This document shows positions 41,484 through 54,653 of a stretch of 64,000 nt of DNA, in pieces. Source of the stretch: a virus; IMG/VR virus record IMGVR_UViG_3300010885_038456, positions 1 to 64,000 of that record. The stretch is one strand, 5' to 3'. The position numbers were made by a program, and so were the translations under genes. The stretch's first letter is position 1; each line of letters begins with the position of its first letter. Below the pieces are notes generated by a model. The model worked only from the letters and a program-made list of their open reading frames with translations, searched no databases and had not been told where the DNA came from.

Positions 41484-41580
41484 ATTGATTGATGGTTGAA
41501 GCCATCAAATAATAAAACCGATTGAGTGACCACTTTCTCTATATGTAGGGGGTTAATAAAGCCGGATATCATCAATCAAT
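41484..41580 (+). ncRNA. Structured RNA candidate closed by an 11-bp stem
   Basis: ATTGATTGATG (41484-41494) pairs perfectly with CATCAATCAAT (41570-41580). The 5' strand can instead form a local hairpin of 7 bp, TTGATGG with CCATCAA just downstream, so two exclusive folds exist. This is typical of riboswitch-like or processing elements. It directly precedes the tRNA array and may be a processing leader. Confidence 0.4.
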
Positions 41581-41584
41581 ACCT

Positions 41585-41655
41585 GCGGTGGAAGTGTTAC
41601 GGTAGCACAACAGACTTCCAGTTTGAAAGAGAATGTTCAATTCATTCCCACCGCT
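41585..41655 (+). tRNA. tRNA-Gly (UCC), copy 1
   Basis: This 71-base RNA folds as a tRNA: acceptor GCGGTGG with CCACCGC, D arm GTGT with GCAC and a GG-containing loop, anticodon loop CTTCCAG giving UCC, T stem GAATG with CATTC and T loop TTCAATT. U73 fits glycine. Four pairs of the anticodon stem form; the first position is A-A. CCA is not encoded. The most canonical of the three. Confidence 0.82.
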
Positions 41656-41673
41656 CTTTAATTTAATTACCTC

Positions 41674-41741
41674 GCGGGTTAAGTGTTACGGTAGCACAGA
41701 AACATTCCAGTTTCAGGAGAGATTCGACTTCTCAACCCGCT
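41674..41741 (+). tRNA. tRNA-Gly (UCC)-like, copy 2, unusual geometry
   Basis: This 68-base RNA has acceptor GCGGGTT with AACCCGC, the same D arm as copy 1, a 5-bp anticodon stem GAAAC with GTTTC around a six-base loop (ATTCCA), and a T stem of only 4 bp (GAGA with TCTC) around TTCGACT. U73 is present. The anticodon reads UCC if the six-base loop lacks position 38. Whether it is charged or functional is uncertain. Confidence 0.62.
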
Positions 41742-41780
41742 CACTTAGTTATGGTTCTAATAAGTAAAAACCAACATATT

Positions 41781-41849
41781 GCGGTATAAGTGTTATGGTA
41801 GCATAATGTACTTCCAGTACAAAGGAGCTGTTCAATTCAGCATACCGCT
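41781..41849 (+). tRNA. tRNA-Gly (UCC)-like, copy 3, short T stem
   Basis: This 69-base RNA has acceptor GCGGTAT with ATACCGC, a D arm like the others, anticodon loop CTTCCAG (UCC), and a 4-bp T stem GCTG with CAGC around TTCAATT. U73 is present. The first position of the anticodon stem is A-A as in copy 1. Its acceptor stem differs from the other copies with compensating changes, which shows selection for structure. Confidence 0.66.
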
Positions 41850-41873
41850 CATTCTCTTAGGAGAAACAGAATC

Positions 41874-42073: not shown

Positions 42074-42146
42074 GTGGTGTTAGTGAAGTGGTTATCATGC
42101 TACACTGTCACGGTAGAGATCGTGAGTTCGAATCTCACACACCACG
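42074..42146 (+). tRNA. tRNA-Asp (GUC)
   Basis: This 73-base tRNA has acceptor GTGGTGT with ACACCAC, a canonical D arm, the anticodon loop CTGTCAC (GUC), T stem GTGAG with CTCAC and loop TTCGAAT, and G73 as expected for tRNA-Asp. One anticodon-stem mismatch (A31-G39) is visible. CCA is not encoded. Its geometry is regular, unlike the glycine copies. Confidence 0.88.
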
Positions 42147-42186
42147 CTAAGTTATTTCATACATTTTATTAACCAACATTAACAAT

Positions 42187-53030: not shown

Positions 53031-54653
<1,623 letters not shown>

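Follow-up and report, generated by a model that had tools for sequence, protein, structure and literature searches.

Why does a phage carry three consecutive glycine tRNA genes with one and the same anticodon, all of them with an altered anticodon loop? The genes lie in what we call the window, the whole stretch of DNA analysed here. It spans 64,000 of the 67,422 bases in a viral record and encodes GroEL as well as several glycosyltransferases. The GroEL protein (positions 53037-54653, 538 aa; phrog_5725, E 1.7e-180) is 64-73% identical to the GroEL of the window's relatives. Those GroEL-encoding relatives run to 245-266 kb, so the record probably covers just part of a giant phage genome. The answer that we favor, and consider quite likely, is that the three genes encode non-decoding glycine tRNAs that are charged by glycyl-tRNA synthetase (GlyRS) and supply glycine to the DNA-modifying enzyme Mom.

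The first-pass annotation had described three tandem genes of the tRNA-Gly(UCC) type, and that description holds (Table 1): the genes are intact and covarying, carry UCC and U73, and have near-identical D arms and acceptor stems that differ yet are fully paired (GCGGTGG/CCACCGC, GCGGGTT/AACCCGC and GCGGTAT/ATACCGC in copies 1, 2 and 3, respectively). In each, T73 is followed by an encoded C, and the D-loop GG is present. The departures from a canonical elongator tRNA begin with the six-base anticodon loop of copy 2 and the four-pair T stems of copies 2 and 3 (GAGA/TCTC and GCTG/CAGC), also as first described, leaving copy 1 as the only one of the three with the canonical five pairs; the pairing of copy 2 is nonetheless perfect, its loop ATTCCA being held by the anticodon stem GAAAC/GTTTC. 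What had been overlooked is that the C32-G38 pair is found in copies 1 and 3 as well, and so in all three, a combination seen in only 2 of 1030 other phage tRNAs. The three copies all carry G1-C72, C2-G71, G3-C70, U73, C35 and C36, which are GlyRS identity elements.

Table 1. The three glycine tRNA genes of the window and neighboring features.
Feature	Position	Strand	Description
Copy 1	41585..41656	+	tRNA-Gly(UCC)-type; 7-bp acceptor stem; C32-G38 closes UUCCA loop; 5-bp T stem; T73 (41655); encoded C74
Copy 2	41674..41742	+	Same tRNA family; C-G-closed six-base loop AUUCCA (41704-41709); 4-bp T stem; missed by Rfam
Copy 3	41781..41850	+	Same tRNA family; C32-G38 closes UUCCA; 4-bp T stem GCUG/CAGC
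Spacer, copies 2-3	41743..41780	.	Among viral contigs, common only to L004
Ordinary tRNA-Asp(GUC)	42074..42147	+	Downstream context; outside glycine family; ARAGORN call
Inverted repeat ATTGATTGATG/CATCAATCAAT	41484..41580	+	Perfect 11 bp, 75 bases apart; ends 4 bases before copy 1

Standard tRNA finders see only part of the array. ARAGORN reports copies 1 and 3 as tRNA-Gly(TCC), along with the tRNA-Asp, and the Rfam tRNA model scores the same two copies at 49.6 and 42.7 bits, above the gathering score of 29; copy 2 gives no Rfam tRNA match even at E<=10, probably because its loop has six bases and its T stem is short, and is recovered by relaxed ARAGORN with a two-base "anticodon". Our family covariance model R1 detects all three, at 88.2, 66.5 and 73.9 bits, a match that is partly by construction, the 26 training rows of R1 including these copies. 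Pseudogene-level scores without conservation had been named beforehand as grounds for refuting the interpretation; what is found instead is a conserved family with strong compensatory change. The unusual loop of copy 2 is not a matter of chance, for AUUCCA turns up again, on different stems, in L002/L003 and L004, and the spacer between copies 2 and 3 recurs in L004 between two family members (L004 is the locus of G011, a 266-kb phage with mom); the same loop is also found in L197 and L211. A DNA search of the phage collection with the array gave no match. The inverted repeat upstream of copy 1 occupies the spot where relatives often have the RNA called GOLLD, and with a folding z of -1.64 it may possibly, and weakly, be put forward as a leader hairpin.

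The window genes belong to a family of about 100 distinct phage genes in which a C32-G38 pair leaves an anticodon loop of only 3-6 bases, U33 is usually absent and the T stem is often weakened. The search pattern consisted of the D arm and UCCAG, which prove nothing for the unity of the family because both are in the pattern; the acceptor, U73, base 33 and the stems lay outside it. The pattern was matched in 48 viral stretches as against 3 matches in bacterial and archaeal genomes totalling 257 Gb, and therefore this is not a host gene family. Two of those three matches, L217 and L218, are Bacteroidales MAG contigs that may have come from a phage or prophage and been binned into the bacterial genome. 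The D-arm sequence alone was dropped as a diagnostic, its matches being mostly tRNA-Trp, and the R1 matches in the control genomes inspected were canonical glycine tRNAs (with CTTCCAA or CTTCCAC loops, and one Gly-GCC), Trp tRNAs and Gln tRNAs.

Common to the family are acceptor stems that begin GCG/CGC, U73, and an anticodon stem lengthened by C32-G38, around loops such as AUCCA, GUCCA, CUCCA and AUUCCA. Positions 32 and 38 are C-G in 32 of 35 members vs. 2 of 1030 among the other tRNAs found in these phage loci; base 33 is A in 15 of the 35, T in 10, G in 7 and C in 3, while U33 is found in 1018 of those 1030 others. Our reading of the acceptor and anticodon positions is based on the known identity elements of bacterial GlyRS, all of which are kept across the family. 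In the 65 distinct tRNAs that adjoin mom, this is true of G1-C72 (65/65), C2-G71 (65/65), G3-C70 (63/65), U73 (65/65) and the CC of the anticodon; what is not kept is U33, base 34 and the seven-base loop, which is here 3-6 bases long. In 58 of the 65, the T stem consists of 4 bp and contains a bulged A; the giant-phage branch, of which the window is part, lacks this bulge, which does not define the family as a whole. The fold is supported by 382 double-sided changes, compared with 109 in shuffles. Since GlyRS elements are kept while decoding features are lost, we infer selection for charging without decoding.

It could be argued that the window genes simply add to the tRNA supply, as three slightly worn copies of an ordinary tRNA that aid the decoding of GGA and GGG. 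They have the UCC anticodon, GGA accounts for 156 of the window's 484 glycine codons, second in frequency, and copies 1 and 3 pass the tRNA detectors; moreover these two keep U33 and all three copies are without the bulged A, so that decoding is compatible with their sequence, which counts against a non-decoding role in the window. However, canonical tRNA-Gly(UCC) and tRNA-Gly(GCC) with ordinary loops coexist with the odd gene in relatives (L052, L053, L054, L049 and L331), and the odd genes are therefore not the decoding glycine tRNAs of those phages. Across the family, U33 and the seven-base loop are systematically lost with the GlyRS elements kept, and even anticodon base 34 is inconstant (loops AACCA, AUACCA and ACCCU). 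We thus regard supplementary decoding as unlikely.

The partner of the family emerges from its neighborhood. In loci without GOLLD, the gene adjacent to the tRNA is a clear relative of Mom (PF25680, adenine DNA modification; Pfam E 1e-43 to 1e-50), 36% identical to the Mom of Mu over 129 residues and matching PDB 8bv8 at E 1.8e-38. To avoid bias, we retrieved 80 mom loci with the Mom protein alone as query, regardless of tRNA, and a family tRNA adjoins mom in 80 of 80; these loci are the best matches of one Mom branch, and the count does not extend to all Mom. R1 finds the abutting tRNA in 77 of them and a base-pairing descriptor finds the remaining three (L277, L280 and L293). The tRNA is on the same strand as mom in 42 loci and on the opposite strand in 38, and simple hitch-hiking in an operon is unlikely because adjacency holds while orientation is mixed. 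In Psychrobacter phage Y8A, a cultured isolate, two members without a D arm but with encoded CCA lie between mom and terminase; the paper describing this phage reports zero tRNA genes (PMC10434257). Against the proposed link, mom has no tRNA next to it in Mu and in most of the isolates checked: none of the family was found beside mom in Mu, Riggi, LP65, P12002L, AsFcp_2, PMBT8, pAEv1818, Melnitz-3 or MT835576. An R1 match in Melnitz-3 was rejected as a Trp-type tRNA.

This neighborhood bears on two further explanations. Donation of glycine to some other enzyme, such as a peptidoglycan bridge, lipid or peptide transferase, has a precedent in staphylococci, where a non-proteinogenic, non-ribosomal tRNA-Gly serves the pentaglycine bridges of the cell wall, and a peptidoglycan role had been suggested in the first-pass annotation. 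But the gene linked to the family, in the 80 loci retrieved by Mom protein, is mom, and we give such an enzyme hardly any credence. The same annotation had suggested resistance to a host anticodon nuclease, and the loops are indeed unusual; phage tRNAs with anticodon-loop changes have been proposed to evade tRNA-targeting defences (PMC10264068). As decoys or nuclease-proof replacements, however, the tRNAs would leave the linkage to mom, the T-stem bulge and the loss of the D arm in Y8A unexplained; a replacement must also be able to decode, and with a loop of 3-5 bases that is unlikely. Resistance is moreover not needed, as family-bearing genomes also carry a canonical tRNA-Gly(UCC) whose loop is ordinary, and we hold this explanation to be very improbable. 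Of the interpretation first offered, then, it is the non-ribosomal role as glycine donor that is well supported, and not its peptidoglycan or nuclease versions.

In the giant phages, the association with mom is one of genome content rather than of adjacency: across 80 loci in giant phages, no family tRNA lies within 10 kb of mom, which is elsewhere in the genome. Of the 10 records that carry the family and measure 100 kb or more, 7 encode a full-length Mom (G009-G011 and G013-G016; not G012, G017 or G019) vs. none of 9 controls (Fisher p ~0.002, by hand), with G009 and G010 near-identical in the region concerned and the effective sample accordingly smaller. On the negative side, the available sequence of family-bearing records G005, G012, G017, G019, G022 and G023 yielded no mom. 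G011, which has the array closest to that of the window, has mom, and G054, a giant phage retrieved only through its mom gene, carries a family tRNA; G053, G055 and G037 have mom, with no family tRNA found in the sequence covered. Tandem pairs of family genes are frequent in these phages (G005, G011, G013-G016 and G019), the window having three. No mom was found in the 67,422-base record of the window, so its Mom partner is inferred from the family and the relatives.

The other neighbor of the family in giant phages is GOLLD. A family tRNA starts 5-12 bases after GOLLD in seven loci (L050, L179, L185, L187, L188, L194 and L199), and in the 642-kb phage LR756502.1 (L219) one odd Glu-type tRNA lies ten bases after it. 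Such spacing would suit a tRNA-like 3' processing element, in which an RNase P cut matures GOLLD or a similar phage RNA upstream, the tRNA being a by-product free to decay. No GOLLD was found in the window, however, and none was detected at the mom-linked members, and processing alone leaves the conserved glycine identity and the covariation of the anticodon hairpin unexplained; we consider it distinctly improbable. Our own first hypothesis, that GOLLD defines the family, was dropped once the mom-linked members proved free of it.

Several other tRNA genes near GOLLD deserve mention. L185 (10087-10156) and L188 (8121-8190) each have, directly after GOLLD, a second family-like glycine tRNA with the four-base loop AUCC and a compensated stem. 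The Glu(UUC)-type tRNAs of L219 (4404-4477 and 5423-5496) flank GOLLD and have the family's six-base loop architecture, here UUUUCA closed by C-G; they may be the glutamate equivalent of the glycine family, and no Mom (PF25680) was found in that record. On the minus strand of L048, a GOLLD RNA (2164-2651) contains a tRNA-like gene with an eight-base loop, and is followed by a Leu-type tRNA with a collapsed loop (2077-2151). In the giant-phage loci L048, L049 and L052-L055, N73 is followed in nearly all tRNA genes by the C that opens CCA, and the remainder is not encoded.

How the window tRNAs might serve Mom can be outlined. Because all identity elements are kept, the host GlyRS would be expected to charge them. 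The collapsed anticodon loop, with C32-G38 paired and U33 lost in most of the family, together with the weakened T stem, would then bar them from EF-Tu and the ribosome; judged from sequence, the poor EF-Tu binding that had been suggested for the window copies is plausible. The phage Mom, presumably encoded in the unsequenced part of this phage's genome, would pass the glycyl group to N6 of adenine in phage DNA, the modification shielding that DNA from restriction, and the tandem copies would increase the supply. A conference report states, in one sentence, that adenine hypermodification of Mu DNA depends on tRNA-Gly for glycyl transfer (PMC12908700). We found no published description of tRNAs of the present kind in the open-access literature, though the unpublished work behind that report may cover them.

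The family as a whole would likely represent a new functional class of tRNA, in which decoding has been abandoned and the molecule is solely an aminoacyl donor for DNA base modification by Mom. Its members would extend from near-normal cloverleaves, as in the window, to minimal forms without a D arm, as in Y8A, that tRNA finders miss. To our knowledge, the donor for Mom's adenine modification of Mu DNA had long been unsettled. The dependence on tRNA-Gly was reported only recently (PMC12908700), and a family that keeps its charging elements, drops its decoding features and lies beside mom in all 80 loci is independent genomic support for the glycyl chemistry, as well as a source of ready partners for Mom biochemistry. 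It suggests that some phage tRNAs arm DNA instead of aiding translation, and that tRNA finders undercount or misjudge such genes, copy 2 and the Y8A members being examples.

With canonical phage and bacterial tRNA-Gly(UCC) the family shares the cloverleaf, the GCG/CGC acceptor start, U73 and UCC, differing in the paired C32-G38, the loop of 3-6 bases, the frequent loss of U33 and the 4-bp or bulged T stem; the window's relatives have canonical copies besides. Phage tRNA arrays with GOLLD (RF02032) are known, and a pseudo-tRNA is reported inside a mycobacterial GOLLD gene (PMC12286853, PMC6582537); here, in contrast, the odd glycine tRNA of giant phages is just 3' of GOLLD, and the window and the mom-linked loci are GOLLD-free. 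The staphylococcal cell-wall tRNA-Gly is likewise an extra UCC glycine tRNA with its glycine identity kept and its translation features weakened. Its G18-G19 is altered, however, whereas the window copies keep the D-loop GG and some of their relatives lack the D arm; the changes in the family are in the anticodon and T stems, and its partner is a DNA-modifying enzyme. The likeness to the Mom system of Mu (PF25680; structure 8bv8) lies in that partner, a clear Mom relative, and in the reported dependence of Mu modification on tRNA-Gly (PMC12908700). Mu, with no tRNA beside mom, presumably uses the tRNA-Gly of its host, whereas these phages bring a specialised one of their own.
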